Shown here one piece after another: positions 1,606-19,990 of a stretch of 35,017 nt of DNA. The notes beneath the pieces are model-generated. The model was not told the origin of the DNA. It was given only the letters and a program-made list of their open reading frames with translations, and made no database searches. How positions within the stretch are numbered: the stretch's first letter is position 1; the number at the start of each line of letters is the position of its first letter. Both the position numbers and the translations under genes were made by a program. This stretch comes from a bacterium (GTDB lineage Bacteria; Patescibacteriota; Minisyncoccia; Sungbacterales; GWA2-42-14): positions 1-35,017 of the forward strand of contig JAUSFV010000049.1 in NCBI GenBank assembly GCA_030649305.1. The letters run 5' to 3'.

Positions 1606-1822
1606 CACAAATCTCCTTTCTTGTTTTATGACACTCGGCAATATGTTCGTCCTGTGTTCCGGGTCGTAGAACATGACCACACAAAAGACAGGACGGGTCG
1701 TATTTGCATACACAATTCGCAATCTGACACGGCATGCGTCCCGAACTTGTATCGTGGCACGGACACCCGCACCAATGAAGACACCTGCCCGCGAAATGCG
1801 ACTTTCCGATACGCCCTATCAC
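1592..1822 (-). CDS. 76-aa Cys/His-rich putative zinc protein, paralogue of its downstream neighbour
   Basis: The GTG at 1822 overlaps the ligase stop as GTGA, a classic translational-coupling junction. It is preferred over the in-frame TTG 1846 because it places C14, H16, C18, C22 and H23 at exactly the same residue numbers as in the 62-aa paralogue. The chain has 11 Cys and ends in the same C45-x2-C48-x11-H60-x3-C64-H65 block. No signal peptide or membrane segment is present, so it is probably cytoplasmic. Its position between an acyl-CoA ligase and a second copy of itself suggests a role tied to acyl-CoA chemistry or to metal/redox sensing, but this is a guess from context. Confidence 0.7.
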   Translation of the reverse strand: MIGRIGKSHFAGRCLHWCGCPCHDTSSGRMPCQIANCVCKYDPSCLLCGHVLRPGTQDEHIAECHKTRKEICDDRV

Positions 1823-3531
1823 GCGCCGCTCTCTTTCTGTTCCCAATTCTTCACATGTTCGCGAAGGTGCCGTTTCAAAATTTTCCCGATTATTGTCTTG
1901 AACGGATCAAGCGATTCCAGAATAATAACGCGGCGCGGCACATGCAAATGTGACAAACCGGCCTGCTTAATATCCGACGCAAATTCTTTTCGGAGGAGAT
2001 CAGGCAATATAGATTCCCCCTCCTTTACTACCACAACGGCAACCGCCGCTTCTCCCCAGCTCGCATCAGGAACGCTTATAACAACTACTTCCCGAACGCG
2101 ACGATGGTGCGATAGCACTGCCTCAATGTCGGTGGCATAAATATTCTGCCCGAGCGATTTAATAATATCGTTCTTTCGGTCAGTAAAACAAAGATGGCCG
2201 TATACATCAAAATATCCGATATCACCCGTCTTGAGCCACTCGCCATCCAATGATTTGGCGGTTGCTTCTTTGTTCAAATAATACCCCTTCATTACCTGCG
2301 GTCCGCGTACCCATAGTTCTCCTTCTACGCACTCATTCCCCTCCTCATCACGGATCTTCACGATAGTTTCGGGAAGCGGTTTGCCGATACGGCTTCCCCG
2401 TGCCGGAGGAGGCAATTTCAAATCATCAGGAAGCAAAATGGACACAATGGGAGATGCTTCAGAAAGGCCGTACCCGACGACCACGTTTGTTCCTGCTATA
2501 TCCTCAAATCCTTTTCGGATTTCTTCACGAATGCCGCCGGCACCATTGATGCAAAGCTTAAGAGAAGAGATATCTTTCGTCTTGATAAGTTCGGAACACT
2601 CCAGCATCTTGCTATACATTTTCTCAACGCCCGGAAATATGGTTACGCGATAGCGGTCAACCGCGCCAATAGCTTCAACGGGGTCAAACGCATGCAGTAT
2701 CACGACCTGTCCGCGAAGTGCAAGCAGGGTCATATTAAGGCATGCGGTAAGCCCGTACACATGGAAAAAGGGCAGCGCTCCAAGAACAACCTCTTCTTCC
2801 TCTTTCAGAAAATCAGCAATGCGCTCCCGCGCCTGCCAGATGTTGCTTGCGATATTGCGATGCGTCAGCATCACCTGTTTCGGCGTACTGGTGGTTCCTC
2901 CGGTTGCCTGAAATTGCGCGACTGCATCAAGCGAGATGTCCGACGGAAGCGAAAAGCGTTCTTTGAAAAAAATGCCGCGAAAACACATCGCGTTTTTCGG
3001 AAACGCGACATACTTCCCGAGCTTTCTCATCTTGAAAGGATAACCAAGGCGCTTATACCACGCCGCGGAATCCGTAAGACGCGTAAAAATAATTTTACAG
3101 GGCCAATCAATATGAATTTGCGAAAGAACGGGATGCAAAATATCAAGCACAAAGATGACAGACGGCTTTGCGTTGATGATCTGGCTTCGCACTTCGTCAT
3201 TCACTTTTATTTCATACGGATTTTTGTTTTTGATTTCCGAAATAAGCGAATCAAACTTGATAGGCACCGCAACGCGTCCGGCCAAAAGCGCTCCGTAATA
3301 GCACATGGCAAATTGGGGGCTATTCAGCATAAAGAGCGCAACGCGGTCATTTCGCTTTGTGCTACCGAGGATGTACGAAGCGATACGCACGGAAGATTTC
3401 CAGAGTTTTTTGTACGACATGCTCTCGCCGAGAAACACGAGCGCTGTCTTTTTCCCCATCTTTTCACAGGAACGCTTGAATAATTCGGGAATCGTTTTGA
3501 TATTCTCTTCCGTAAACCAGCGATATGCCAT
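1819..3531 (-). CDS. Long-chain fatty acyl-CoA ligase (AMP-binding, FadD-like)
   Basis: A 570-aa ANL-superfamily enzyme that should activate a carboxylic acid to its acyl-AMP and then acyl-CoA. Core motifs are in order: P-loop QATGGTTSTPKQV (about 208-220), GYGLSEASP (353-361, aromatic/acid binding motif), KTGDIGYFD and DRKNDIIKSLGQNI around 430-450 (ATP ribose binding and hinge), and GKILKRHLR near the C-terminus with the catalytic lysine region. ATG 3531 is chosen because GGGAGG lies eight bases upstream; an upstream TTG at 3558 has no such site. It ends by overlapping the small Cys-rich protein genes, and the acyl-CoA mutase follows in the same direction, so the product may feed branched or short acyl-CoA metabolism. 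Substrate length cannot be told from the sequence. Confidence 0.93.
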   Translation of the reverse strand: MAYRWFTEENIKTIPELFKRSCEKMGKKTALVFLGESMSYKKLWKSSVRIASYILGSTKRNDRVALFMLNSPQFAMCYYGALLAGRVAVPIKFDSLISEIKNKNPYEIKVNDEVRSQIINAKPSVIFVLDILHPVLSQIHIDWPCKIIFTRLTDSAAWYKRLGYPFKMRKLGKYVAFPKNAMCFRGIFFKERFSLPSDISLDAVAQFQATGGTTSTPKQVMLTHRNIASNIWQARERIADFLKEEEEVVLGALPFFHVYGLTACLNMTLLALRGQVVILHAFDPVEAIGAVDRYRVTIFPGVEKMYSKMLECSELIKTKDISSLKLCINGAGGIREEIRKGFEDIAGTNVVVGYGLSEASPIVSILLPDDLKLPPPARGSRIGKPLPETIVKIRDEEGNECVEGELWVRGPQVMKGYYLNKEATAKSLDGEWLKTGDIGYFDVYGHLCFTDRKNDIIKSLGQNIYATDIEAVLSHHRRVREVVVISVPDASWGEAAVAVVVVKEGESILPDLLRKEFASDIKQAGLSHLHVPRRVIILESLDPFKTIIGKILKRHLREHVKNWEQKESGA

Positions 3532-3587
3532 TTTTGTTTCCTCCCTGTTGTTTTTCAAACACCTGCCATATCAGTACCATATTTTCA

Positions 3588-5029: not shown

Positions 5030-5968
5030 CTAATATGTAGGAAGTTTATCTACAATCTCTCCGAACATCCGAAAGGGTTCATCCACGTCAGTAAATCCGG
5101 GGATGAAATCAGTTGTATTAAAAATCTTGTGATCCTTATATAATAAAACAAAGCCGGTTAAAAAAAGATAAACCCAAAGTGCCTTCAAAAAAGAAAAAGG
5201 ATCCCTCCGTGGAAGAAACGCTACCGCGGTTAATCTGCTTCTTTTATCATTTGTAGGAGTATTAGAAAATAGAATAAAAAAATCTACCGGAATTCGCACA
5301 CTAATTATTGCAATATTTGCGCCCATAGTTTCAAAAGAGGCGTTAAAATCTTTTTTTGCGGTCCATGTAAGCAACTGGAACAACCGATTTTTCGGTCTTC
5401 CCCAGTGTTCTACTTCCACTCCGTATTCACCTTTCTTAAACCACTGTGATTGCTTACTAAACTGCATATCGTGTAATGTATCCAAATGCCGCCAATCAAG
5501 TCCGTTGGCAGTCAGAAAATGAGGATGATTATTTATGTAACGCGATGGAAGTCCGAGGGCGCGATACCGATTTGCATCAATATCAGGAATGTCAAATAAC
5601 GATTCTGGTCCGTTGAAAATCCATACGTGACCATATTTCTCGGCGGTCGGATATGCCCTCACTCTTCGTTGCGGTATTTCTCTTTCATACGGAGCGCTTG
5701 CCACCCGCCCCTCAGAATCATATTCCCATTTATGAAGCGGACACTGCAAACAACATCCGACTACTTTACCAAGACTTAAATCAGCGCCCATATGAGAGCA
5801 CCGAGCATCCAGAGCATAGATTCTTCCGTTACTATCCCGATAGAGAGCGATTTTTCTATTAAGAATCGTAAACCCTTTTACTTTTCCCGGCCTTACCTTA
5901 CTTGAACGACAAACCGAGTACCACGATTGAACAGTTACATCAAAATTGTTTAGGTTTCTCCCGATCAT
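5030..5968 (-). CDS. Rieske non-haem iron oxygenase (oxygenase component)
   Basis: A 312-aa protein. The N-terminal Rieske domain holds the [2Fe-2S] ligands C57-x-H59 (ARCSHMGADL) and C76-x2-H79 (QCPLHKWEYD). The C-terminal catalytic domain shows the mononuclear iron signature D158, H161, H166 (NGLDWRHLDTLH). Such enzymes use O2 and electrons from a reductase to hydroxylate, desaturate or cleave ring or lipid substrates. No reductase partner is in the window. It is transcribed divergently from a second Rieske oxygenase with the same iron-ligand numbering, only 100 bases away. The start has no Shine-Dalgarno site but an extended -10 box seven bases upstream, suggesting a leaderless mRNA. The region is AT-rich compared with most of the window. 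The substrate is unknown. Confidence 0.9.
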   Translation of the reverse strand: MIGRNLNNFDVTVQSWYSVCRSSKVRPGKVKGFTILNRKIALYRDSNGRIYALDARCSHMGADLSLGKVVGCCLQCPLHKWEYDSEGRVASAPYEREIPQRRVRAYPTAEKYGHVWIFNGPESLFDIPDIDANRYRALGLPSRYINNHPHFLTANGLDWRHLDTLHDMQFSKQSQWFKKGEYGVEVEHWGRPKNRLFQLLTWTAKKDFNASFETMGANIAIISVRIPVDFFILFSNTPTNDKRSRLTAVAFLPRRDPFSFLKALWVYLFLTGFVLLYKDHKIFNTTDFIPGFTDVDEPFRMFGEIVDKLPTY

Positions 5969-5975
5969 GATGTTT

Positions 5976-5984
5976 ATACTACCA
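5976..5984 (-). promoter_or_regulatory. Extended -10 promoter of the minus-strand Rieske gene
   Basis: The minus strand reads TGGTAGTAT, a TGn-extended -10 box, ending seven bases before ATG 5968. Transcription would start at or next to the start codon. There is no good -35 box. Confidence 0.45.
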
Positions 5985-6016
5985 CAATGGGTTTTTAATA
6001 AAAAGTACGACGATTA

Positions 6017-6045
6017 TTGCTCTTAAATAAAAAACGTGCTTTAAT
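6017..6045 (+). promoter_or_regulatory. Promoter of the Rieske-hydrolase-SnoaL-desaturase operon
   Basis: TTGCTC (6017-6022), 17 bases, TTTAAT (6040-6045), about 24 bases before ATG 6069. Confidence 0.5.
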
Positions 6046-6068
6046 TAACCCCAGAAGATATCCGACCT

Positions 6069-7055
6069 ATGCAATCTATACAAAATCAAGAAAATTTGCC
6101 AAGATCGTGGTACCCCGTCTGTCTCTCTCGCGAGCTTAAAAAAAATGGTTTGATGCCCATTAAACTTTTTGGGAACGACTGGATATTGTTCCGCGAATCG
6201 CATGGAACCATCGGAATGCTGTATCGATTTTGTCCACACATGGGTACTGACTTAGCTAATGGGTGCATTATAGAAAATTGTGTTCGTTGTCCTCTCCACC
6301 ATTGGAAATTTGATAAAAATGGAATTCGTGCTGAATCTGGTTTCGGCGACTCCCCCCAACAGCCTGTGAAGACACAATATCTGCCCGTACAAGAAAAGTA
6401 TGGAATCATTTTTGCATACTGGGGACGTAATCCGGAATTTCAGCCACCGACATTGCCCGACTCTCTTAATTTACTATATTCAAATCCAATCACAATGCAA
6501 TTAAACAATAGTTATGTTGCGGTGATTCTGAACGCTTTTGACGTTCAGCATTTAACAGCCGTTCATAATAGAATCATAGATGGCGAGATTACATTTAATA
6601 ACGAAAGTATCTACCATCTCGGGATAAAATTTTCGCTACGCGTAAGTCGCAAAAAATTGCTGGATTCTATGCTTATTATGTCCGGTATGGGATCATCGGA
6701 GATTCAATACAATTGCTGGGGCGGCAATTACCTAATAGTGCAAAACCCAACAACGAAATTCTGCGCTGTTATGATTTTACAACCAAGTGAAAGGGTTGAT
6801 GAATCTAAGCTTTTCCTTGTCGTTGCTACGAGTATTGCGTCAAAAAATTTTATTAACGCGTTCATAACGAAACAGAAATTAAGAATTATGAGGTTTTTTG
6901 CAGTAAGTTTTTTACAACAAGATGTGAGGATATTAAAAAATATGAGACCCGTCTTAGGGCTGTCATCGCCTGAAAAAGATATCGGGGCAATAAAGTTTTG
7001 GGATTACTTCCAAAAATTGCCCCGGTTTTCAATTTCTCAAGACCCGCATGTTTAA
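6069..7055 (+). CDS. Second Rieske non-haem iron oxygenase
   Basis: A 328-aa oxygenase component with Rieske ligands C55-x-H57 (FCPHMGTDLANG) and C74-x2-H77 (RCPLHHWKFD). The mononuclear iron triad D158, H161, H166 (NAFDVQHLTAVH) has the same residue numbers as its divergent partner at 5030-5968, so the two probably derive from one ancestor despite low similarity elsewhere. It opens a four-gene plus-strand operon; its last eight bases overlap the hydrolase-like gene (ATGTTTAA). A C-terminal hydrophobic patch (RFFAVSFLQ) may touch the membrane, which would suit a lipid substrate. No reductase is nearby. Function beyond oxygenase class is inferred. Confidence 0.9.
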   Translation: MQSIQNQENLPRSWYPVCLSRELKKNGLMPIKLFGNDWILFRESHGTIGMLYRFCPHMGTDLANGCIIENCVRCPLHHWKFDKNGIRAESGFGDSPQQPVKTQYLPVQEKYGIIFAYWGRNPEFQPPTLPDSLNLLYSNPITMQLNNSYVAVILNAFDVQHLTAVHNRIIDGEITFNNESIYHLGIKFSLRVSRKKLLDSMLIMSGMGSSEIQYNCWGGNYLIVQNPTTKFCAVMILQPSERVDESKLFLVVATSIASKNFINAFITKQKLRIMRFFAVSFLQQDVRILKNMRPVLGLSSPEKDIGAIKFWDYFQKLPRFSISQDPHV

Positions 7056-7983
7056 AAAAAGAATGTTTGGTCAGGCGTTCATAGACGAAGTTGCGCTATT
7101 CGATTCAATAGCCGATTTTAATCTTACTGTTCCTCATGAACGACCCCTACAACAACTACTTCTCGAAGAGGGTATCGAGAAAACGACCGCGATTGTATAT
7201 AAACACGTCTATCAAAAGCATCGTTCATTTATCGAGAAAGTAAATTCCTACCCCACAACCCCCGCGCCGGCGTTAACAATAAAACTTGTTGTGATTCCCG
7301 GGATGTTTTATAAAGAATATCCGGAAATGGGTTGTGATGGAATGCTAATAAAAAATATTGCGGAAAAATTTAATTTCGTATGCGATATACTGGATATAGA
7401 TAGCCGCGGATCTATATTGAAAAATAAAGAAACTATAGTGCGGAAGTTGACAGACGATCCGCACGAAAATATTTGGATCGTATCCTTCAGTAAGGGGTCT
7501 ATAGAAACACGTATCGGCTTGGAAGAAATATATAAATCCGGCCTAACTCGCAATAACATAAAAGGATGGATTAATGTGTCGGGTCCGATCAAGGGAACAG
7601 CGTTAAGCGATGAAAAATTGAACTCGGCCTTGAAATATTTCCTATGGCGGGTGTTTGCCGAAATGACAGGTATTTTCGGCAGGATGCCGGACGAAACAGC
7701 CAAAAGTAATGCCCTTCTCAAGGCCCCCGTAAACGTTCCTCCGCAACTCGAACAAATTCACCTGGTGGGGTTTCCACTTGCTTCTCATCTGCAACCATTT
7801 ACTATAGGGAGATATAGGAAATTATCGACTTACGGCCCAAACGATGGTATAATTATGCTTAGTGAAGCGCTAAATTTAGATGGCCACGTATACCCGATTT
7901 GGGGCGTTGACCATTTTCTTAGGTCGAATCACATCAGCGAAATAATTTATAAATTATTAAATTATATAACTAATAAAAATTAA
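7048..7983 (+). CDS. Alpha/beta-hydrolase-like protein with SFSKG nucleophile elbow
   Basis: 311 aa. A strand-turn-helix WIVSFSKGS (143-151) looks like a hydrolase nucleophile elbow with Ser148, but the usual first Gly of GxSxG is Ser146. YGPNDGI (Asp266) and GVDHFLRS (His289) are placed as the acid and base of a catalytic triad would be. An early strand LVVIPGMFY may supply the oxyanion hole. No signal peptide is seen. It overlaps the Rieske gene by eight bases and the SnoaL-like gene follows after one base, so it is translated with them. It may be an esterase, thioesterase or acyltransferase acting on the oxidised product; alternatively a non-catalytic relative. The hydrolase fold is moderately certain. 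Confidence 0.7.
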   Translation: MFKKRMFGQAFIDEVALFDSIADFNLTVPHERPLQQLLLEEGIEKTTAIVYKHVYQKHRSFIEKVNSYPTTPAPALTIKLVVIPGMFYKEYPEMGCDGMLIKNIAEKFNFVCDILDIDSRGSILKNKETIVRKLTDDPHENIWIVSFSKGSIETRIGLEEIYKSGLTRNNIKGWINVSGPIKGTALSDEKLNSALKYFLWRVFAEMTGIFGRMPDETAKSNALLKAPVNVPPQLEQIHLVGFPLASHLQPFTIGRYRKLSTYGPNDGIIMLSEALNLDGHVYPIWGVDHFLRSNHISEIIYKLLNYITNKN

Positions 7984-7984
7984 A

Positions 7985-8614
7985 ATGAAAAAAAATATAT
8001 TTCTATCAGTTATAATAATATTGTTCTTATACAGTGCTTCTGTTTTCGCAAAAGATCCTGCCGGCTCCGAGGATCCGCGACATGATGAACTACGTGCGGT
8101 TATGGTCGATCTGCAAGACGCATTGGATTCTAAGGACATCGAAAAAATCAAATCCCATCTTAGCCCAAACGTAAATGTAGTGTTGCAAGACGCGGAGGTT
8201 GCAGATGGCATTGAGGCTGTTGATGCGCTCTACAAGCGCTTGTTCGTTGGCAACGCTGCTATTCTTAATCTTAAAAGTTATAGTTCCAGAGCGCAGGCAG
8301 ATGTTCTGTCTGAAATCTATGAAAATACGGCTGTCGTATACGGCACAATCACCGATTCGCTTTCTTTCAGTGACTGGAGGGGGGATATTCAAGTAACATC
8401 CCGATGGACAGCCACGCTATTGAAAGAAGATGGTAAATGGAAAATTATCTCTCTGCAGCTCGGTGCAAATTTATTTGACAATCCTTTACTGAATGCGGCA
8501 ACAAAGAGTATTAAATACTTCGGCCTTGGAGGGCTCGTAATTGGACTTATTGTCGGATTCTTTACGGCAAAAATTTATCTAAAAAAGAAGCTTTCAACGA
8601 ATGCACAACTTTAA
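7985..8614 (+). CDS. Secreted, membrane-anchored SnoaL/NTF2-like protein
   Basis: 209 aa. An N-terminal signal segment (lysines then IFLSVIIILFLYSASVFA, likely cleaved before KDPAG) is followed by an NTF2-like domain: a helix (AVMVDLQDALDSKD), then strands including TAVVYGTITDSL, RWTATLLKEDGKWKIISL. A C-terminal helix (GLGGLVIGLIVGFFTAKIYL) plus KKK anchors it with the domain outside the cytoplasm. SnoaL-like domains can be cyclases, isomerases or simple ligand pockets. Its place in an operon with an oxygenase, a hydrolase and a desaturase suggests binding of a lipid-like product at the membrane. The stop overlaps the desaturase ATG (TAATG). Confidence 0.75.
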   Translation: MKKNIFLSVIIILFLYSASVFAKDPAGSEDPRHDELRAVMVDLQDALDSKDIEKIKSHLSPNVNVVLQDAEVADGIEAVDALYKRLFVGNAAILNLKSYSSRAQADVLSEIYENTAVVYGTITDSLSFSDWRGDIQVTSRWTATLLKEDGKWKIISLQLGANLFDNPLLNAATKSIKYFGLGGLVIGLIVGFFTAKIYLKKKLSTNAQL

Positions 8615-9537
8615 TGGTTAGTATCAAAAGCTCCCTAAACATAACACTGGTTTTAGGCATCCAAGTATTAGCTTGGGGGCTCTTGTGGTTTGCTTCTGAA
8701 TTAAATCTGGCACTAAATATCTTTTTGGGAATTATCTTCTCCTTTCTTTTGCTCACAAATTATGCTCTCATGCATGAGTCCGCGCATCATCTCTTTCATC
8801 CATCGCAAAAACTAAATTATTTGTTTGGAGTACTTTCGACCAGTATTTTTCCCATGTCATTTACGGTATTTGAGCTTACACACCGCGTTCATCACAGAGG
8901 CAACCGAACAGATCCTGAACTATTCGACTATTTTTACCCCGGAGAAAGCAGAATTGTCAAAAGCATTCAATGGTATGGAATACTTACCGGTTTATATTAT
9001 CCCTTCGTTCCCCTTGGCACGATTATTATGGCGTTAGTTCCATGGATCTACCAAACTCCACTATTCACGAAAAGACGAACATTTAAGGTGCTCCTTAAAG
9101 ATTTCAAAAACAGAGAGGTATTTTTGGTAAGAATCGAGGTCCTCTTTATTCTTCTATATTGGATCGGTATGTACTATCTGCTCGGTTTGAATTTGACAAC
9201 TGTTTTAATTTTCTACGGCCTTTGGGGAATTAACTGGTCAACTCGACAATTTGTTGCTCATGCTTGGAGTCCGCGTTATATTGCAGACGGCGCCATAGAC
9301 TTGAAAGTAAGTAAGCCTCACGGCTGGCTCTTGTTACATGGCAATTGGGAACACGTTCATCACAAATTTACCCACCTTCCGTGGACAGAGTTATCGAACC
9401 GCAAATATCATACCAGCGTCGCGAGATCATACCTGAAACAGTGGATGAGTTTATGGAAAGGAATTCGACTAGTTACAGAGCCCGAACCAACTCCGATCAT
9501 GAAGGTTAATGAACTTTCCCAAAGGGCTTCCCGCTGA
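8614..9537 (+). CDS. Membrane fatty-acid desaturase/hydroxylase
   Basis: 307 aa with the three histidine boxes of the di-iron membrane desaturase family: HESAHH (54-59), HRVHH (90-94) and HGNWEHVHH (242-250). Hydrophobic helices at about 9-30, 33-53, 122-145 and 172-202 give the expected hairpin topology with the boxes on the cytoplasmic face. Family members introduce double bonds, hydroxyls or ketones into acyl chains or carotenoids; the short size and HGNWEHVHH are also seen among carotenoid-type relatives. Its ATG overlaps the preceding stop by one base. Its 3' end runs 32 bases into the end of the opposing PAP2 gene with no terminator between. It is probably one step in building or modifying the lipid made by this cluster. 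Confidence 0.9.
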   Translation: MVSIKSSLNITLVLGIQVLAWGLLWFASELNLALNIFLGIIFSFLLLTNYALMHESAHHLFHPSQKLNYLFGVLSTSIFPMSFTVFELTHRVHHRGNRTDPELFDYFYPGESRIVKSIQWYGILTGLYYPFVPLGTIIMALVPWIYQTPLFTKRRTFKVLLKDFKNREVFLVRIEVLFILLYWIGMYYLLGLNLTTVLIFYGLWGINWSTRQFVAHAWSPRYIADGAIDLKVSKPHGWLLLHGNWEHVHHKFTHLPWTELSNRKYHTSVARSYLKQWMSLWKGIRLVTEPEPTPIMKVNELSQRASR

Positions 9538-10114
9538 TGGCAAAGTAAACAATGAACGCAAGAAGCCCCCCGGATAAGATATCAAGTATATGATGCTGAT
9601 GCGTAAAAACAGTAGAAGCGACTATGACCATAATCCACAATCCCAAAAAAGTTTTTACATATATGGACCTCAAAAAGTCTATGCAACTTATCAAATATAG
9701 AAATGAGAACGCGACATGTAGTGAGGGGAAGGGGTTTACGTATGGATCTATTTTAAACATCGTTTCGTAAAGCGAGGCGGTAAATCCAGCGGGAACAATT
9801 CTTGTGAAACCGTACTCGGACGGGAATATAAAGAATATTATTCCCGCACAAACTGTACAAAAAGCAAAAGCTAAACTCAATTTTTTAATTTCTTCTCTGG
9901 GGAATAAAAATAATGGAAACAGAAATAAGAAGCCGAATGATAAGTATGGTATAATCATCCAGCCCACCAAAGGAATATTCGTTTCCCACGCAAAATAAAG
10001 TTTTGCTTTTTCGTAGCCGAAGTTAGCGTGATTCAAAAAATATATAGGCAAATACAGAAATACATTAAAAAGAAGATATTTGCCGAAATATATTTTATCG
10101 TTTCTTGTAGACAT
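9506..10114 (-). CDS. PAP2-superfamily membrane phosphatase/transferase
   Basis: 202 aa from ATG 10114 with about five to six membrane helices. NPFPSLHVAF is the PSxH motif with the catalytic-site histidine, and STVFTHQHHILDILSGG carries the final H-x3-D motif; the (T/S)x5HHxxD style is like inositol-phosphoceramide synthase/AUR1-type members. It may remove a phosphate from a lipid phosphate or swap head groups. The frame stays open to TTG 10240, but that would overlap the GH3 stop by 34 bases and run through a terminator hairpin, so the internal ATG, typical for the family's first helices, is preferred. The start remains uncertain. AT-rich, like the Rieske-desaturase block it converges on. 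Confidence 0.8.
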   Translation of the reverse strand: MSTRNDKIYFGKYLLFNVFLYLPIYFLNHANFGYEKAKLYFAWETNIPLVGWMIIPYLSFGFLFLFPLFLFPREEIKKLSLAFAFCTVCAGIIFFIFPSEYGFTRIVPAGFTASLYETMFKIDPYVNPFPSLHVAFSFLYLISCIDFLRSIYVKTFLGLWIMVIVASTVFTHQHHILDILSGGLLAFIVYFAISGKPFGKVH

Positions 10115-10179
10115 TTTTATATAAGACGGAGATATAAATAATATAGCCAAGCCGACATTTAAAATATAACAAAAATACA

Positions 10180-10210
10180 CAATAATAAAACCCTCAAACG
10201 AGGGTTTTAA
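10180..10210 (-). terminator. Terminator after GH3
   Basis: AAACCCTC (10188-10195) pairs with GAGGGTTT (10200-10207); the minus strand continues TTTATTATT. It includes the first base of the GH3 stop codon and argues that PAP2 starts downstream under its own promoter or by readthrough. Confidence 0.65.
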
Positions 10211-11886
10211 ACGTAATAACCAGAAAATTCTTTTGCCCAATTTTCATAGCGATGAAGCCTCACCATCTTTATCGCTCCAAAGCGCTGTCCAAGGCGATAT
10301 GAAGTTTCAAGAAAAAACTCGGTAGCTGTCTTACTATCCTCCGGCTTAATAACAAAAACGGCAAGTGATGCCAACTGACCGAGACTCCGGGCGTATTGAT
10401 AATAATAATTATCCTGAAACGCCTTTTCCGCCGATTCCTCAAGTTCTGTTAATTTCGCCGGTGTAACTCCAAATTTTGATTCCAAAAATAATACATACCG
10501 ATAACACCCGCTGGATATTTTTTCCGGCGCTACCATCCAAAATTCCGCTTTTATATCAAGTAACGACAGTAATGCGCCGATTGCTTTCTCCACAAATGTC
10601 TCGTTGAGTTTTTCTCCGACACAATCAACAACCTTGTCTCCGCGACCTATGAACTTCAAAACAGGAACACCCCGCCAGAAATCATGGACTTCCACGATAT
10701 CGCCGATATCATAGCGATACAGCCCGCCGTTTGTGGTAACAATCATCCGATACTGCTTGTTTCTTTCAACTTCATGCGCGAAAACAACCTGCTTCGCGCC
10801 GCCAACCTCTTCAAACTCAAAGAAGTGAGAATTAACGGACAGAACGGAATACCTCGAAAAGAAGGGGAACGATACAAACATTTCTGTCGCAAGAAGTCCT
10901 TTCGGCTGAATCGCGACGCGAGGAAGCATTTGTAGAATATCTTTGACCTGGCCATGAGCCAAACCGTCTGTCCAGCAGCTAATTACCGAAAGCTTGGGCC
11001 ATATGCTCTCATAAAGAGTTTTCTCTGAATCCCGCTGCGCACAAACAAGTTCTTCCAGCTCTCGAATGCGCCCCGAAGGACAATGAAGTTTTGTTTCAAG
11101 AATTCGCCGAATTTCGTTTGGACATTTTGGAATTTTCCGAGAACGAAGACTGAGAACAAGCTCGGGCAATAAGCGCGGCAAATCCTTCAAAAGAATGACG
11201 AGGTACGTGGGATTCCAGACAGAAATAAGACGCAAATTTTTTCTTGCGAGAAGAAAGAGTAGCGTACAATAACGAAATGTTTCGATATCCTCAATCTTCT
11301 TTACTTCGGTCGGTGCTGCGCTCACGGTATCAAGAACCCATTTTTGTAACGCGCCAAAATATTCGCCATCTTCGCTAAATCCAATCGGAATACCGCATTC
11401 TGTATATCGATTCTTGGAATGCGCGGGGGTAATGGACCAATATACCGACCCGATGAACAATCGCGGATACTTCAAATACAAAGAAAAAATCCATGGATCG
11501 ATTCCCCGTCTGAAATCGACCTTGAGGGAAGCGGTATAGGGAATCAATTTTGAGGCCGAAGCAGAACCGCTTGTGGGCTCAAACATACGAACTGGATCTT
11601 CGGTAAGAATCGATCCTCCTCCAGTAGCAACTTCGTTAATAAAAGGCAGAAAATCCTCATAGGTCTGGATAGGTACGCGCGTCCTAAATTCTTCAGGAGT
11701 ATGAATCCGCCCAAAGGAGTGTTTCTTCCCGAATTTAGAGTTCTTGTTCGCGGCGAGAATCTGAAGAAGTATTTTCTTTTGCGTCCGTTCTACGTTACGA
11801 ATCGCCCCAAAAAAACGAAAGGTGTTGGGCAATGTAGAAAGCCAAAAGAAGACATGAGCTATCAGAAAACGCAAGGTGCTATTCAT
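10207..11886 (-). CDS. GH3-family acyl-adenylating enzyme
   Basis: 559 aa, full length for bacterial GH3-domain proteins. GH3 enzymes, best known from plants, activate a carboxylate as acyl-AMP and transfer it, usually to an amine. The ATP-binding motif FEPTSGSASASK (102-113), the YRYDIGD segment (second nucleotide motif) and GRGDKVVD with the C-terminal hinge are all present. An N-terminal amphipathic/hydrophobic stretch (FLIAHVFFWLSTL) could associate with membrane. ATG 11886 has GGAG eight bases upstream and overlaps the GNAT-like gene by eight bases. In this cluster it is the only obvious amide/ester-forming ligase, so it probably joins the modified acyl chain to an acceptor. Its substrates are unknown. 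Confidence 0.9.
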   Translation of the reverse strand: MNSTLRFLIAHVFFWLSTLPNTFRFFGAIRNVERTQKKILLQILAANKNSKFGKKHSFGRIHTPEEFRTRVPIQTYEDFLPFINEVATGGGSILTEDPVRMFEPTSGSASASKLIPYTASLKVDFRRGIDPWIFSLYLKYPRLFIGSVYWSITPAHSKNRYTECGIPIGFSEDGEYFGALQKWVLDTVSAAPTEVKKIEDIETFRYCTLLFLLARKNLRLISVWNPTYLVILLKDLPRLLPELVLSLRSRKIPKCPNEIRRILETKLHCPSGRIRELEELVCAQRDSEKTLYESIWPKLSVISCWTDGLAHGQVKDILQMLPRVAIQPKGLLATEMFVSFPFFSRYSVLSVNSHFFEFEEVGGAKQVVFAHEVERNKQYRMIVTTNGGLYRYDIGDIVEVHDFWRGVPVLKFIGRGDKVVDCVGEKLNETFVEKAIGALLSLLDIKAEFWMVAPEKISSGCYRYVLFLESKFGVTPAKLTELEESAEKAFQDNYYYQYARSLGQLASLAVFVIKPEDSKTATEFFLETSYRLGQRFGAIKMVRLHRYENWAKEFSGYYV

Positions 11887-12616
11887 TGAGTTTCACTCCT
11901 GCTAATCGAAGCATTCTCACGAACGCCGGAGCAAAATTTTTCACCGTTATTTCAGCGACACACACAAGCTCATTCCCCCGAATATGATCCGGGTTTCTCT
12001 GAACAAAATATTGAATATGCGGATCTTTCAGGCGACCCTCGTGCGCTTCCGCAACTCCAACCCGCAACACTTCTGCTTCCGACGAAGCAATGATAAGCCC
12101 TAAAGAGCCGTCATATTGATCCGGATACTTATATGCACCAAACATATCCATAACATTCCTAATTTCTTCCGGCGTTTCGCGGTCGTAACGCGGATACCAT
12201 TCACGAAAGAATATGGGAAGAATTCGATACGTTCGGCAGCCCTTTGAAATAAGAATCCAATACATGCGTTCAAGAGGAAATCGTTGTACGGCCGTAAGAA
12301 AGTTTTTTCCGATTTCAACGCCCATCGTTGCGGTACGCCGATACTCTTCCCGTACAACGGTATCGCCCGAGAAAAACCCCTTCACCCCCACGCCATGTTC
12401 TCCCAGATCAAAAATTTTGAACGTGGAAAATCCCACGATCGCGCCGGAGCGCGAATCAAGCATCGTCATAACCGCCTCCTTTTCATCAAGGTCGCAGTTG
12501 AATTTTTCTTCAGTCATCCCATCATAATAATCCAGCATCAGCGAAAACATCTGTTTTCGTTCCGATGCTGTTACCGCCGGTATCGGCTTGGTCACGCCGT
12601 GTGTCAAAATCTCCAT
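11879..12616 (-). CDS. GNAT-like acyltransferase (tentative)
   Basis: 245 aa. The strand-helix order, a central GVGVKGFFSGDTVV strand pair and YRRTATMGVEIGKN, which resembles the R/QxxGxG/A acyl-CoA pyrophosphate loop followed by a helix, suggest a GNAT fold; the match is loose. ATG 12616 has AAGGAG eight bases upstream and is the first gene of a transcription unit with its own strong, apparently regulated promoter. It overlaps GH3 by eight bases. A role as acyl or aminoacyl donor enzyme to GH3 chemistry is plausible. No membrane helix or signal peptide is seen. Confidence 0.65.
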   Translation of the reverse strand: MEILTHGVTKPIPAVTASERKQMFSLMLDYYDGMTEEKFNCDLDEKEAVMTMLDSRSGAIVGFSTFKIFDLGEHGVGVKGFFSGDTVVREEYRRTATMGVEIGKNFLTAVQRFPLERMYWILISKGCRTYRILPIFFREWYPRYDRETPEEIRNVMDMFGAYKYPDQYDGSLGLIIASSEAEVLRVGVAEAHEGRLKDPHIQYFVQRNPDHIRGNELVCVAEITVKNFAPAFVRMLRLAGVKLNE

Positions 12617-12642
12617 GACGCTTACTCCTTGCTTAATTTAAA

Positions 12643-12667
12643 AGAACGCTTGTTCTACAAGCGTTCT
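12643..12667. promoter_or_regulatory. 25-base palindrome over the -10 box, probable operator
   Basis: AGAACGCTTGT (12643-12653) and its exact reverse complement ACAAGCGTTCT (12657-12667) are separated by three bases. The palindrome covers most of the -10 box and the expected start site of the GNAT-GH3 promoter. Size and position fit a dimeric repressor (for example TetR type). No regulator gene is in the window. Alternatively it is the terminator hairpin of the upstream gene. Confidence 0.6.
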
Positions 12668-12691
12668 ATCATAGATATAATTAATTGTCAA
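12663..12691 (-). promoter_or_regulatory. Promoter of the GNAT-GH3 unit
   Basis: TTGACA (12686-12691, perfect), 17 bases, TGA then TAGAAC (12663-12668), an extended -10. About 40 bases before the start codon of the 245-aa protein. Confidence 0.75.
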
Positions 12692-12693
12692 TA

Positions 12694-13803
12694 TCAGAGA
12701 ATTGCAATTTCCAGATGCGGTAACCTATTTTCAAGTTCTGCCACTCTTTTTCTTCCGTCTTCCCAGCAAACCACATACATTCGGCTCTTAACGATACGAT
12801 GCCGGACATTCAGAAGAACCGATCCCAGTGGGTCTTTCTCATTGAAACCAAACAGAGCATACTCGTAACTGGATGAATTCCAATCGCGATAGATGCGATG
12901 AAGAAACATCCGAAGAACTTCGGGCTCAGGAGGATTAATCGCAATAAAAGATATGTATAATGACCGTATCTGTTCACCGATCTGCGGAAGCTGTGGCGCG
13001 CCAATAAGCATGGCATACGCATTATACCATGGCCGCAGATATTTTAGTGTCTTACTATAGCCCTCAACCACCGTTTGTTTCGTACTACTCTGATCCCACA
13101 CACCGACTACGCCAACGATTGATGCGCCAATACGCGCAACGTAGAAATTCTCGGGAACAAACCCTGAGAACATTCCCCTCTCAAAATCCGAAACTTCAAA
13201 ACATGGAGCAAACTGAAATTGCGCATTATACACATTCAAAAACGCAACAATTTCAGGGATGATCTCCCGGGAGCCGCGGACAATCGTTCCTCTAAAATCG
13301 GGGGGGTTCCCGCGAAATGATCTCAACGTAACAATATGGGTATTAAGCGCGCCAATCTCCTGATAAGTCGGAAGCCCGGCACGACCCGAGGTAAGAAGTT
13401 TTTTTGCCGTTTCATTTTCATCAAAAATCGTTGTGAAGTAAAATGGGACTTTTCCGTCAGCGGCATGAAGCTCCCGCAATGCATTATACGCGCGGGGAAG
13501 CAGTATTCCTCCGCGAACTTCGGGAATTGCTCTTAATGATGAAAGATAGCCGATGTTTTCCGGTCTGCCGTTAACAAATACCCTTCTCACTGACCTTGAT
13601 CCAAAGCCAACTATCTTACGAGATACCCGTTCGCGACAGAGAAGAACGTCGAGGGATTGAGCACCGATTCTTTCGGCGGCAAAAAAATCGGGCTCTTTTT
13701 GGAATACGATCCTCAAAGAGCCCTCCATTGGTATACTGCGGATAATATTCCGTAACGCCTTATCATCATCTCTGCCGGCCAAACCAAAATAGTATTTAGA
13801 CAT
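12694..13803 (-). CDS. GNAT-family acyltransferase-like protein
   Basis: 369 aa. ENIGYLSSLRAIPEVRGG followed by LLPRAYNALRELH and FYFTTIFDENETAKKLL is the pattern of a duplicated GNAT family often annotated as N-acetyltransferase, with the acyl-CoA loop around RGG. A second GNAT-like half follows (about 190-340, with VARIGASIVGVVGVWDQ). ATG 13803 is chosen because GAGGAAG precedes it and it overlaps the radical SAM gene by eight bases (ATGTCTAA). It ends 26 bases before a new promoter, so it closes the radical SAM transcript. It probably transfers an acyl or aminoacyl group in the same pathway; the exact reaction is unknown. Confidence 0.75.
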   Translation of the reverse strand: MSKYYFGLAGRDDDKALRNIIRSIPMEGSLRIVFQKEPDFFAAERIGAQSLDVLLCRERVSRKIVGFGSRSVRRVFVNGRPENIGYLSSLRAIPEVRGGILLPRAYNALRELHAADGKVPFYFTTIFDENETAKKLLTSGRAGLPTYQEIGALNTHIVTLRSFRGNPPDFRGTIVRGSREIIPEIVAFLNVYNAQFQFAPCFEVSDFERGMFSGFVPENFYVARIGASIVGVVGVWDQSSTKQTVVEGYSKTLKYLRPWYNAYAMLIGAPQLPQIGEQIRSLYISFIAINPPEPEVLRMFLHRIYRDWNSSSYEYALFGFNEKDPLGSVLLNVRHRIVKSRMYVVCWEDGRKRVAELENRLPHLEIAIL

Positions 13804-15157
13804 ACGCGACTTCCTCAATCGGAACCGGCTCATACGGCTCATTTCCGAGCGGCAAATCGTTCTTCTGGTCTATCTCTTTTTTGAGAAGCAAATTTAGACC
13901 AAAGTACGTAGCTGTCATTTTTGCGCTTGACAAAACAACCGATGGGTTGAAACGACGCAAAATCGCGGGAAAGCCGTAAAACTTCTTTCGCGCCTCAAAA
14001 CATGCCTTTCTCAATTCTTCGTGGGTACAATTTTTGGGATTGAACGGAATTTCATTGTACCGGAATTCCGGGCTCAGCCACCACTTCTTATACCGAAGTT
14101 TTCCCGCCTCTTCAAATTCACGGTACAAAGGAGTTCCCGGAAGAGGCAAAAGATGATTAAACGCCCCGATATAAAGTTTCATCTCAATCGCCCGCTCAGT
14201 CGTATACTGGATATCCTCAAGCGTTTCGGTGTCATACCCAAAGATAAATGTTCCGTAAATACCAAGGCCGTATCCATGAATTTTTGCGACCGCCTTTTCG
14301 TAATCCCCGATTACAATATTCACTCCCTTATCCATGAGCCTCAGAGTTGATTCTTTGAATGATTCAAAACCAATAAGAACTCCCTTGCAGCCGGATTCAA
14401 CCATAAGCGACAAAAGCTCGTCGTCTTTTGCCATATTCACCGTGCCCTGACTCACCCAACGAATGTTCAGCGGTTTCAGGGCTCGGAAAAGTTCCTTGGC
14501 GGTTCGAATACTGCCAATGATATTGTCGTCAACGAAAAAAATATCTTTTCTCCCCGACAATTCTATCTCCTGAACAATTTCCGGAATCGGCCTTCGGATA
14601 AAGGTGGATTTCGTCGCGGCCGCAATGGAACAAAAATTGCACCGAAGCGGGCATCCCCGGCCCGTTTCTACGCAGGCAATATTGAAGTAGGGCTTGCTCT
14701 CAAAAATATCACGCCGCGGCATGGCAAAACGCATCGGCTGATCCTGAAGCCTTTTGTAGAACGGCTTAAGCTTGCCGACGGTCTTGAGATCTCCGAGAAG
14801 CTCTTCCCACGCCCCTTCGGCTGGCCCGACAACAACACTATCTCCGTAATGAGATACCTCATCGGGAATGAGGGCTGCCTGATATCCGCCAAACACAACG
14901 GGCACTCCGCGCTTCCGGAATTCAGCTGAAATTTCATAACCGCGTTTCGCGGTATATGTTTCAACATTGATTCCGACAAGATCAGTTGGATCATCAAAAT
15001 CAATGTCTTCCAGACGCTCGTCATACAGTTTAATCTCCACGTCAGGCGGCGTAATCCCGGCAAGCATCGCAAATGCAAGTGGTTCCATCTGCCATGTCCT
15101 TACATACTCTTTTTTGTTCTTACGACCGATATGAGGAACAACAAATGTTACTTTCAT
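13796..15157 (-). CDS. Cobalamin-binding radical SAM enzyme A
   Basis: 453 aa of the B12-binding-domain radical SAM class (HpnP/BchE-like methylases and cyclases). An N-terminal Rossmann-like cobalamin domain (about 1-130; DLVGINVET and VPVVFGGYQAALIPDE) lacks the DxHxxG motif, as usual in this class. The 4Fe-4S cluster motif is C169-x3-C173-x2-C176 (GRGCPLRCNFCSI). IFFVDDN and GVLIGFES are typical barrel segments, and PLPGTPLYREF is typical of the C-terminal part. It overlaps the second such enzyme by four bases (ATGA) and the GNAT gene by eight. Such enzymes methylate or cyclise at unactivated carbons, so it likely modifies a lipid or polyketide-like chain. Confidence 0.9.
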   Translation of the reverse strand: MKVTFVVPHIGRKNKKEYVRTWQMEPLAFAMLAGITPPDVEIKLYDERLEDIDFDDPTDLVGINVETYTAKRGYEISAEFRKRGVPVVFGGYQAALIPDEVSHYGDSVVVGPAEGAWEELLGDLKTVGKLKPFYKRLQDQPMRFAMPRRDIFESKPYFNIACVETGRGCPLRCNFCSIAAATKSTFIRRPIPEIVQEIELSGRKDIFFVDDNIIGSIRTAKELFRALKPLNIRWVSQGTVNMAKDDELLSLMVESGCKGVLIGFESFKESTLRLMDKGVNIVIGDYEKAVAKIHGYGLGIYGTFIFGYDTETLEDIQYTTERAIEMKLYIGAFNHLLPLPGTPLYREFEEAGKLRYKKWWLSPEFRYNEIPFNPKNCTHEELRKACFEARKKFYGFPAILRRFNPSVVLSSAKMTATYFGLNLLLKKEIDQKNDLPLGNEPYEPVPIEEVAYV

Positions 15158-16545
15158 TCGTTAACCTCCCCCAACACTAATGGCTGGTGCGCAACCGCAT
15201 ACTCAGGGGCGCTGAACCACGACCTCTCTTCGCATGGGATGGGCATATACGCCGGATACTTTCTTGCGTACACATTATATCCGAGATTGACGCCAACCGA
15301 TGTCACGAAAACAAGCGGATTAAGCGAGGCGGCGGATGTTGCGATTCTCCGCGCAATTGATGTAAGTTTATACGCCTCTTTCCACGTTCTTTTGGTTCCT
15401 TCGTACAAACACTCTGGCGTTATTCCTTTGGGACGAAAAACAACATGCTGTCCGTCATACCACTCCCAATTCTTGTTAATAATACGTTTTTCCTGGTCAA
15501 GCATCCGATAAAGTGGAGTATTCGGAAACGGTGTTGCGATAGCGAAACGAGGCAAATCAATACTCGCCTTAAAAACAAATTCCAGAGTTTCATCAAAAAC
15601 ACGTTCTGTGTCGCCATCAATACCAAATACAAAACATCCGTTTACCGCAATCCCATGATCGTGCAGCATACGAATACGCCAAAGATTGTCGTCTGGCTTC
15701 TGCCACGACTTTCCCATGGCTTTCAAGGTTTTTGGGTTTTGCGATTCAATCCCAACCAAAAGCCCTCTGCAACCGCTCCGCTCCAAACGCTTCATCAATT
15801 TTTGATTATCTGTAATATCGAGCGTCGCAAGCCCGCCCCAATATTTCTGAAGCGGCGCGAATGCGTCAGCAAGCCGTCCGAAGTATTCTTGGTCTGACGA
15901 CGGCGAAAGGTCGATCAGAATGAATGTCTTTCCCGAAAGCTCCGATGCCTCCCGAGCTACATCATCCGGATCCCGTTGATACTGCTTTGGCCACGCAGAC
16001 GGCACAACACAAAACGTGCAACGATACACACAGCCTCTCGTCGCCTGCACCACATTCATTGTTGTATATTTTTCTTTCTTTAAAAGATCGCGACGCGGAC
16101 GAGGATATCCATCAAGCGTTGTCGGTTGCCTGTCATAACGCTTTTTAAGAAGTCCCGTCGCAAAATCACGCAAAAGATCCGGCCACGCTTCTTCAGCATA
16201 CCCGAACACAATGGCATCGGCATGCTGTTCTGCTTCGTCAGGACAAAGCGTAATATGAACTCCGCCGAGCACCACCGTAATACCACGGTCACGAAGAATA
16301 CGGCTGTACCGGTATGCCTTCGGAGCATTTCCGGTAATCACCGTAATTCCCACAAGATCAGCGTCAATCGTATACGGGTCAAAATCGTCCGCCCACTCAT
16401 CAATACATTTTACTGAAACATCGAGTTTCTGCGGTATCAAAGCAGCAAGCGTAGACATAGTTAATGGCGCATAACGAAGCCTTTGATCAAATGCGCCGTT
16501 CTTCCCGTATCGATTGGATTGCGGCGTAAGCAGTACGATTTTCAT
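15154..16545 (-). CDS. Cobalamin-binding radical SAM enzyme B
   Basis: 463 aa, same class as its downstream neighbour but clearly diverged. The cobalamin-type domain has DADLVGITVITGNAP and ITVVLGGVHITLCPDE. The cluster motif is C172-x3-C176-x2-C179 (TRGCVYRCTFCVV). GLLVGIESQNP and PFPNTPLYRML are conserved barrel and tail segments. ATG 16545 is chosen over 16557 because GGAGG lies between them at correct distance. It is first in the operon radical SAM B, radical SAM A, GNAT, behind its own promoter. The paired enzymes may act in sequence on one substrate, for example two methylations or a methylation and a cyclisation; this is inference. Confidence 0.9.
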   Translation of the reverse strand: MKIVLLTPQSNRYGKNGAFDQRLRYAPLTMSTLAALIPQKLDVSVKCIDEWADDFDPYTIDADLVGITVITGNAPKAYRYSRILRDRGITVVLGGVHITLCPDEAEQHADAIVFGYAEEAWPDLLRDFATGLLKKRYDRQPTTLDGYPRPRRDLLKKEKYTTMNVVQATRGCVYRCTFCVVPSAWPKQYQRDPDDVAREASELSGKTFILIDLSPSSDQEYFGRLADAFAPLQKYWGGLATLDITDNQKLMKRLERSGCRGLLVGIESQNPKTLKAMGKSWQKPDDNLWRIRMLHDHGIAVNGCFVFGIDGDTERVFDETLEFVFKASIDLPRFAIATPFPNTPLYRMLDQEKRIINKNWEWYDGQHVVFRPKGITPECLYEGTKRTWKEAYKLTSIARRIATSAASLNPLVFVTSVGVNLGYNVYARKYPAYMPIPCEERSWFSAPEYAVAHQPLVLGEVNE

Positions 16546-16583
16546 CTTACCCTCCATTGATTTTCAAAGTCCAACTGCCTGTC

Positions 16584-18731: not shown

Positions 18732-19859
18732 TTATCTCTTTTTCGCGAGGCCTCGGCTCGTGTATGCCGGATTATCCGTTACTTCGCGAATAACATTCAG
18801 AAACGGGGGTAAAATAACAGGGTCGTCTTTATCAAGCAATTCAATCTCAAGCATAAAAAGTCCTTTGTGCCGGCGGGGTGCCAGAAACTCATCAAGCTCG
18901 CAATACTGATTTTCCCACAAAAAATAATGGCGTATCTTCTTGATGATATCACATGACATATCCTTCTCTTCATGAAAAATCTTTTGATACCGCACAGCAT
19001 CAATTCGCACTTCGGGGTCGGTGCGAATACCATCCGCAATCTTCTCTTTTTTCGTTTCGTAATACAGGAAGTAGCCGTCCTGTCCCCGTTTGCGAATACG
19101 CCATGTTATTTTTTTCAAACTCTTCAAATAGACCTGCTCAAGAGGCACCGGCACGACCCGAATACCCCGCTTCGCAAACTCACCAAACCGCGGCGCTTCC
19201 ACCAAAAACTTTCGTTCTATCTCATATGGCTTCGGAAGACCGAGGATATGACACACAACCTGATACGCTTTTTCCTTCTTCTTCTCAAAATCTTCCATGC
19301 CCGGCACAACCCAAAGATGCGGATGTCCGATCCATACGTCTTTTGTGCACGCATCCCGTTTTGCAGCCTCTTGCGGCGTTTTTTCGCTACGCCAAGGATT
19401 ATTTTCCCTCGTATAAGCCCCGGGTACGCGAACCCCGGCACTTTCGCAATGTACGACACCATCGTATGGTTCGTCCCGAAGTGCTGTATCATTCATACCA
19501 AGATGCCGCATAAGATTTATAAACTCCGAAGGTTCTATATAGACTCGATTATCTATGAATCCCCGATTGCATAAAAGAACTCCCCTCTGTTTTTGAACAT
19601 TGCGCATGATGTCCAGCAAAAGTTCCCGCCATCGGGTTTCATGTTCTTTTTGGGCAAATAAAACATGCTTCTGAAAATCGGAAGAGGTTACGCCGTTCTC
19701 TCCCAGCTCAGCGCCGCTACCGAAAAACTCGGTTGCAATCTCGGGCACGCCAAGCGCGGGAATTCCCCATTCAGCCACCAGTCGCTTCCTGACATACGGA
19801 ATAATACCGTCTTTGCCGCCGCCAGGACCCCCCGTCACCGCAATTTTTTGTATGTACAC
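18732..19859 (-). CDS. P-loop NTPase fused to a CYTH (triphosphate tunnel) domain
   Basis: 375 aa. The N-terminal half is an AAA_28/NadR-like P-loop domain: [12 protein letters not shown] (Walker A region), [14 protein letters not shown] (Walker B-like), and a lid region. The C-terminal half (from about residue 215, [12 protein letters not shown]) is a CYTH domain with the hallmark ExExK (EIERK), basic strand residues (ITWRIRKRG), and MLEIEL near the end. CYTH domains bind triphosphates. The Walker A residue after Lys is Asp instead of Ser/Thr, an oddity that may weaken magnesium binding. The start lies at GTG 19859 or the preceding GTG 19862, behind AGAGGGGGG. Monocistronic. Similar two-domain proteins exist; their role is poorly defined. 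Confidence 0.85.
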
Positions 19860-19930
19860 CACTACCCCCCTCTTGTATTCATATTTCAACGAACCGAAAC
19901 CATCATACCAAAATGCGATATCCCGCGCAA

Positions 19931-19959
19931 TTGAAAAATTTAAAAAAAACTGATATGAT
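19931..19959 (+). promoter_or_regulatory. Promoter of the 108-aa gene
   Basis: TTGAAA (19931-19936), 17 bases, TATGAT (19954-19959); an alternative -10 TATAAT is at 19959-19964. Confidence 0.7.
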
Positions 19960-19990
19960 ATAATAAGAACAAACAACATGGAGAAAGCCC

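Follow-up and report, generated by a model that had tools for sequence, protein, structure and literature searches.

A recurrent bacterial gene cluster of GH3, GNAT-fold and B12-type radical SAM enzymes, probably for an N-acylated, lipid-like molecule

What might a bacterium with a very small genome produce from two Rieske oxygenases, a desaturase, a GH3 ligase and a pair of B12-type radical SAM enzymes encoded side by side? The question is raised by contig JAUSFV010000049.1 of assembly GCA_030649305.1 (Patescibacteriota), whose 35,017 nucleotides are the window analyzed here, and in which eleven open reading frames (ORFs) at 5030-16557 form a cluster with two converging arms. The plus strand carries, in order, genes for a Rieske oxygenase (RO2), a hydrolase-like protein (HYD), a SnoaL-like protein (SNO) and a desaturase (DES); the minus strand, read from right to left, carries two radical SAM genes (RS2 and RS1), two GNAT-fold acyltransferase genes (GN2 and GN1), GH3 and PAP2, and a second Rieske gene (RO1) completes the set. 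The host genome measures 1.02 Mb and is 94.7% complete, the genomes listed for its phylum ranging from 0.5 to 1.4 Mb. On balance, we read the cluster as one copy of a widespread, apparently undescribed pathway for an N-acylated, aminolipid-like molecule, whose identity and substrates we infer from the encoded enzymes. With moderate confidence, we further propose that this is an undescribed pathway class present in at least 15 phyla, including gut and rumen Clostridia, Citrobacter, Neisseria and ultra-small bacteria, in which a GH3 ligase and a bacterial N-myristoyltransferase (NMT)-like enzyme are combined with B12 radical SAM and Rieske/desaturase sets that replace or supplement each other, giving an uncharacterized acyl-amide lipid.

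The core of the cluster, GN1-GH3-RS2-RS1-GN2, recurs across phyla. A GH3 alignment, run against 84,980 species genomes in one scan, returned 80 loci, which together with four others make 84 GH3 loci from genome and plasmid collections (labelled L below), many of them contigs of metagenome-assembled genomes (MAGs). Of these, 75 contain GN1, 72 contain GN2 and 71 contain B12-type radical SAM genes, with 252 such ORFs in total; among the 49 loci with more than 6 kb on both sides of GH3, the corresponding counts are 46, 44 and 40. Gene order is conserved as well, with GN1-GH3 in 69 loci, RS-RS-GN2 in 58, the combination GN1-GH3-RS-RS-GN2 in 35, and the arrangement of the window, RS-RS-GN2-GN1-GH3, in 14. 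Judging from record labels, the loci spread over about 17 phylum-level groups, and cultured carriers include Citrobacter youngae ATCC 29220, Neisseria elongata ATCC 25295, Leminorella grimontii ATCC 33999, Ruminococcus flavefaciens 007c and Planktothricoides SR001. A record labelled Chryseobacterium sp. 18061 (L097) has the same match statistics and layout as that of Citrobacter sp. 18056 (L090), which points to probable contamination of the deposited assembly by Citrobacter.

Given that these loci were retrieved via GH3, searches anchored on GN1 were added as a check. They gave two full-length matches among 380 genomes of the host's phylum and three among 249 genomes of the Ruminococcus family, all of them beside GH3 and radical SAM genes. 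In a plasmid collection, GH3 and GN2 matched the same four records and no others, and GN1 was found in all four; a mobilizable Citrobacter portucalensis plasmid carries GN1-GH3-RS-RS-GN2-RS-RS-PAP2-SNO, with RS-DES convergent. Distant GN1 relatives on Azospirillum plasmid records (L018 and others), at 22-25% identity and with no GH3 seen, were treated as lying outside the family. Six GH3 neighbourhoods of other clades gave no match to GN1, GN2, RS, HYD, SNO, DES or PAP2 and a single Rieske match, and no cluster was found in the E. coli genomes searched. Within the host's phylum, a genome of another class (G189, L011) holds GH3 (40%), GN1 (42%), GN2 (35%), RS1 (53%) and RS2 (40%) together, without the plus arm. 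In that genome the core (L011:6270-17300) interrupts a ribosomal-protein region, with the S10/EF-Tu genes on one side and the gene for L3 on the other, an unusual site for a biosynthetic cassette.

The genes RO2-HYD-SNO-DES-PAP2 constitute an accessory module that is joined to the core both here and in other phyla. Among the 84 loci, DES is found in 15, Rieske genes in 12, SNO in 11, PAP2 in 9 and HYD in 5, and the accessory genes are enriched near the core (51 of 521 ORFs within four genes, compared with 3 of 251 farther away; Fisher p = 1.4e-6). The first-pass annotation, which was made from the letters of the window, had read the two arms as one pathway and suggested looking for co-occurrence of GH3, B12 radical SAM and Rieske genes in other genomes. 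Such co-occurrence exists, for radical SAM genes in 71 and for Rieske genes in 12 of the 84 loci, and the arms are neighbours well beyond this genome, so that the refuting case named in that annotation, proximity of the arms in this genome only, does not apply. A Gemmataceae MAG (L028) has all 11 gene types, arranged as three Rieske genes, SNO, HYD, RS2, RS1, GN2, GN1 and GH3, followed on the opposite strand by PAP2 and DES. Ten of the 11 types are found in the gammaproteobacterial MAG NIOZ-UU29 (L093), on a single strand in the order GN1-GH3-RS2-RS1-GN2-RO-HYD-SNO-DES-PAP2 and with about 26-47% identity to the window proteins, and likewise in a Leptospiraceae MAG (L062), as RS-HYD-RO-PAP2-DES-SNO-RS2-RS1-GN2-GN1-GH3; the Citrobacter and Leminorella loci and others have part of both arms. 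Altogether, genes of both arms lie close to the core in twelve loci (L028, L093, L062, L016, L089, L090, L096, L043, L037, L022, L032 and L082). HYD adjoins RO2 in the window, L037, L062 and L093, and PAP2 adjoins the core in the Citrobacter loci. The idea of a single set thus stands as far as joint recurrence goes and needs amending in that the plus arm is optional, the minus arm being the core, which stands alone in L011. In Burkholderia arboris (L017:12696-14591), a PAP2-like domain and a fatty-acid desaturase are fused in one ORF beside GN1/GN2.

GN1 and GN2, which match no Pfam or NCBIfam family, both take GNAT folds in structure predictions, in line with their first-pass description as GNAT-like. 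The AlphaFold2 model of GN1 (pLDDT 95) contains one GNAT domain and its matches in the PDB are generic GNAT proteins. That of GN2 (pLDDT 93) contains two adjacent GNAT domains, and its leading PDB matches are N-myristoyltransferases (E ~1e-14, TM ~0.6, ~12% identity); by sequence, a GN2 profile matches NMT chains weakly, and the Pfam NMT models gave no match with the E threshold relaxed to 10. Human NMT1 uses its C-terminal carboxylate as the catalytic base (PMC7048800), so that a fixed C terminus is expected from an NMT-like mechanism. Of the 69 GN2 ORFs that end in a stop codon, 67 carry E or D at position -5 from the C terminus and 62 have a final Leu, in a C terminus that is of low confidence in the predicted model. 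The lipid nature of the product, proposed from gene content at first, is still conjectural and is now backed by this NMT-like fold.

The tailoring enzymes come in two styles. Clostridial loci lack Rieske genes and DES and have as many as six radical SAM genes; five loci (Burkholderia, a Comamonas-labelled record, Planktothricoides, Neisseria elongata and Verrucomicrobiaceae) have Rieske genes without radical SAM; and mixed loci, such as the window, have radical SAM and Rieske/desaturase genes together. The existence of Rieske/desaturase loci without radical SAM genes suggests that oxygen-dependent and oxygen-independent tailoring, by aerobic and anaerobic enzyme sets respectively, may be interchangeable on one scaffold. 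In three of the five Rieske-type loci (L058:6230-9172, L074:12723-15590 and L095:4915-7680), an NQR2/RnfD-FG-GAP-UnbV_ASPIC fusion lies beside GH3 and the Rieske gene, a protein reminiscent of UnbU/UnbV of enediyne clusters, a resemblance for which no paper was found; di-iron AurF-like or PF10118 proteins are encoded in two of the five. A radical SAM tree separates an RS2 clade of 65 sequences in 64 loci, about one per locus, from 150 RS1-like sequences in 68 loci, so that we take both paralogues to be ancient members of the system. Both RS1 and RS2 have the CxxxCxxC motif. The B12-binding domain of RS2 scores 44.1 bits against a cut-off of 32.1, as expected of a B12-dependent radical SAM enzyme, and that of RS1 stays under the cut-off (Table 1). 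RO1 and RO2 both have the CxH...CxxH cluster ligands and the D-x2-H-x4-H iron site.

Within the window, all eleven ORFs named by the first-pass annotation are present, and Pfam/NCBIfam models back its assignment of the two Rieske proteins, FA_desaturase, PAP2_3, GH3, the two B12-binding/radical SAM proteins and the DUF4440/SnoaL-like protein; the hydrolase-like reading of HYD agrees with an S-x-S-x-G elbow and with D266 and H289, conserved in an alignment of homologues. Catalytic motifs are intact in RO1, RO2, DES, RS1, RS2, PAP2 and HYD. Overlaps of 1-8 bases, which had been reported for most junctions, are found at RO2/HYD (8 bases), SNO/DES (1), GH3/GN1 (8) and RS1/RS2 (4), and at GN2/RS1 (8) when GN2 begins at its third Met, but HYD/SNO and GN1/GN2 are separated by gaps of 1 and 77 bases, and PAP2/GH3 overlap by 34 bases counted from a TTG start. 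Similarly, the two arms do converge, DES and PAP2 overlapping tail to tail by 32 bases, but RO1, being on the minus strand and divergent from RO2, lies outside the plus-strand operon. GC content at third codon positions (GC3) varies along the cluster: the plus-arm genes and PAP2 lie at 0.35-0.43, GH3 at 0.43, and GN1, GN2, RS1 and RS2 at 0.44-0.49. Elsewhere in the window (18732-19979), an AAA_28 kinase-like domain and a CYTH domain are fused.

Table 1. Genes of the cluster and one neighbouring gene, with positions in the window
Gene	Position	Strand	Assignment	Supporting features
RO1	5030-5968	-	Rieske non-haem iron oxygenase, divergent from RO2	PF00355 88 bits; CSH...CPLH, DWRHLDTLH
RO2	6069-7055	+	Rieske oxygenase, accessory module	PF00355 63 bits; CPH...CPLH, DVQHLTAVH; 34% orthologue in L093, others too
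HYD	7048-7983	+	Serine alpha/beta-hydrolase-like	Weak DUF7379 match; S146xS148xG150, GPND266, D288H289 invariant in 6 homologues
SNO	7985-8614	+	SnoaL/DUF4440-like	PF14534 32.7 bits; N-terminal signal and C-terminal membrane anchor, by reading of the sequence
DES	8614-9537	+	Membrane di-iron enzyme of the fatty-acid-desaturase family	PF00487 64.9 bits; His boxes HESAHH, HRVHH, HVHH
PAP2	9506-10240	-	Membrane PAP2_3 (Aur1/inositolphosphotransferase-like)	PF14378 35.7 bits; PSLH, HQHHILD motifs
GH3	10207-11886	-	Acyl-acid amido synthetase family, core	PF03321 165.8 bits, GH3_M 70 bits
GN1	11879-12616	-	Single-domain GNAT-fold acyltransferase, unnamed family, core	AF2 pLDDT 95
GN2	12694-13842	-	Tandem-GNAT, NMT-like acyltransferase, core	AF2 pLDDT 93; conserved C-terminal Leu
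RS1	13796-15157	-	B12-type radical SAM, core	PF04055 57 bits, CPLRCNFC; weak B12-binding match, 26.9 bits
RS2	15154-16557	-	B12-binding radical SAM, core	PF04055 67 bits, PF02310 44 bits, CVYRCTFC
ACS	1819-3558	-	Long-chain acyl-CoA ligase-like, upstream, possible acyl-CoA supplier; membership uncertain	PF00501 225 bits; homologue in 3 loci

Based on these assignments, we propose the following scheme. GH3 enzymes form amides by adenylating an acid and coupling it to an amine; the carboxylic acid used here would be either the acyl chain or a second one. With CoA or another thioester as the donor, GN2 would pass a long acyl chain to an amine, using its own C-terminal carboxylate as the base in the manner of N-myristoyltransferase, and GN1 would add or hand over a further acyl group. 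RS1 and RS2 may modify unactivated carbons without oxygen, by methylation, C-C bond formation or oxidation, and with oxygen available the Rieske and desaturase enzymes would oxidize or desaturate the chain. HYD may move or remove an acyl group, SNO, which is likely extracytoplasmic, would act outside the cytoplasm, and the Aur1-like PAP2 may attach or remove a phospho head group. A search for ketoacyl synthases gave no match in the host genome, compared with matches in 14 of 14 control genomes, so the host's acyl chains are probably taken up from outside; the neighbouring ACS gene might activate the scavenged chain.

Several observations weigh against this scheme. Its product, substrates and activity are predictions from sequence, GN1 has no obvious characterized relative, and GN2 resembles NMT in fold, at the low identity given above and outside the Pfam NMT models; GNAT folds, moreover, acylate many things. 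Neither a dedicated carrier protein nor a Rieske reductase could be recognized. The GC3 difference between the arms means that they may have been acquired separately in the host lineage, even if they form one functional unit now. In addition, an Acinetobacter baumannii locus (L015) has GN1-GH3-GN2 and an efflux system without B12 radical SAM or oxygenase genes, which indicates that these genes are dispensable and that a single product class is not guaranteed. That locus also bears on the foremost alternative, namely that the product is an exported small-molecule natural product (a toxin, a signal or an antibiotic-like acyl amide) rather than a membrane lipid, the GNAT and GH3 enzymes conjugating an acid to an amine and the radical SAM and Rieske enzymes decorating the conjugate. 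In strain X4-300 (L015:8422-16101), which has a minimal form of the cluster, a TolC-like gene lies among GN1-GH3-GN2 and EmrA/EmrB-like genes lie ahead of them, efflux genes that were assigned by reading the sequence. The sparse matches of the GN1-anchored searches in the Ruminococcus family and the host's phylum give a patchy distribution typical of secondary metabolism, and one copy lies on the mobilizable Citrobacter plasmid. However, PAP2_3, the fatty-acid desaturase and the NMT-like fold point to long-chain lipids, and no transporter family recurs beside most loci, the commonest extra family being ABC ATPases, which are generic and found in 13 loci. We consider an exported natural product rather unlikely, and retain a lipid-like product as the preferred reading.

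A second alternative, which we regard as quite improbable, is an ornithine-lipid-type pathway in which GH3 would make an N-acyl amino acid and HYD would be the O-acyltransferase equivalent to OlsI. It draws on OlsH, the sole characterized bacterial GH3 that we found, which makes N-acyl ornithine and has the alpha/beta-hydrolase OlsI as its partner (PMC12493201), and on HYD being itself a serine alpha/beta-hydrolase-like protein. The GH3 of the window is well above the Pfam cut-off (165.8 against 23.6 bits), but it scores 55 bits against a cut-off of 620 for OlsH (NF052613), a range of 620-1000 bits being reached by true OlsH of Planctomycetia, and in a tree it sits in a cluster-specific clade apart from OlsH. 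Furthermore, HYD is missing from most cluster loci and resembles no ORF beside OlsH in three planctomycete loci, where OlsI was not identified with certainty, and GN1 and GN2 have no counterpart in that pathway. Finally, that two unrelated operons merely converge in this genome, as the GC3 difference and a second genome of the phylum with the minus arm only might suggest, is hardly credible and is contradicted by the joint recurrence of both arms close to the core in twelve loci and in other phyla.

If the proposed pathway is correct, bacteria make a whole class of lipids or lipid-like natural products that has been overlooked, although the genes are present in cultured isolates and in MAGs from gut and rumen. 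The pathway would also place an NMT-like enzyme of bacteria outside protein myristoylation, with a bearing on the origin of eukaryotic NMT, allow aerobic and anaerobic enzyme sets that may perform equivalent chemistry on one scaffold to be compared in nature, and raise the question of how an ultra-small host without a detectable ketoacyl synthase tailors lipids obtained from others. With cultured carriers at hand, a direct search for the product is feasible.

The first-pass annotation knew of no described pathway with this gene set, and the open-access literature, the part covered here and in which absence is not proof, likewise gave no paper on a GH3/B12 radical SAM cluster. A role in defence was rejected, PADLOC giving no meaningful match and one weak 18-bit match to RS1. 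Among described systems, the OlsH/OlsI ornithine-lipid pathway of Singulisphaera acidiphila (PMC12493201) shares with the window a bacterial GH3-family amide synthetase, an alpha/beta-hydrolase partner, a part for which HYD would stand in the window, and the lack of an acyl-carrier assembly line; it differs in the clade of its GH3, and in the window GH3 is partnered in the core by two GNAT-fold enzymes and by enzymes of the B12 radical SAM type. The ladderane candidate clusters of anammox bacteria (PMC2649909) also combine several radical SAM enzymes with desaturase-type enzymes that are proposed to modify fatty acyl chains. These clusters belong to type II fatty acid synthesis (FASII) and contain numerous fabF paralogues as well as phytoene-desaturase-like enzymes, and no GH3, acyltransferase or Rieske protein is mentioned for them. 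A ladderane pathway was rejected for the window, where RS1 and RS2 score 64 and 52 bits against a TIGR04072 cut-off of 360, there is no FASII/fabF setting, and the genome has no ketoacyl synthase match. RS1 and RS2 have in common with the BchE, HpnJ, HpnR and PhpK families the radical SAM core, the CxxxCxxC motif and a B12-binding-type N-terminal domain, but miss every NCBIfam equivalog cut-off by a wide margin. GN2 is like eukaryotic NMT in its tandem GNAT fold over ~400 alignment columns, and its extreme C terminus is fixed among homologues, as a carboxylate base at that position would require; it is unlike NMT in sequence, in being bacterial and in sitting in a biosynthetic cluster. Taken together, we rate the pathway class as new, because its two signature families are unnamed and its core falls outside the nearest characterized pathways, and every one of its enzymes nonetheless belongs to a known superfamily.

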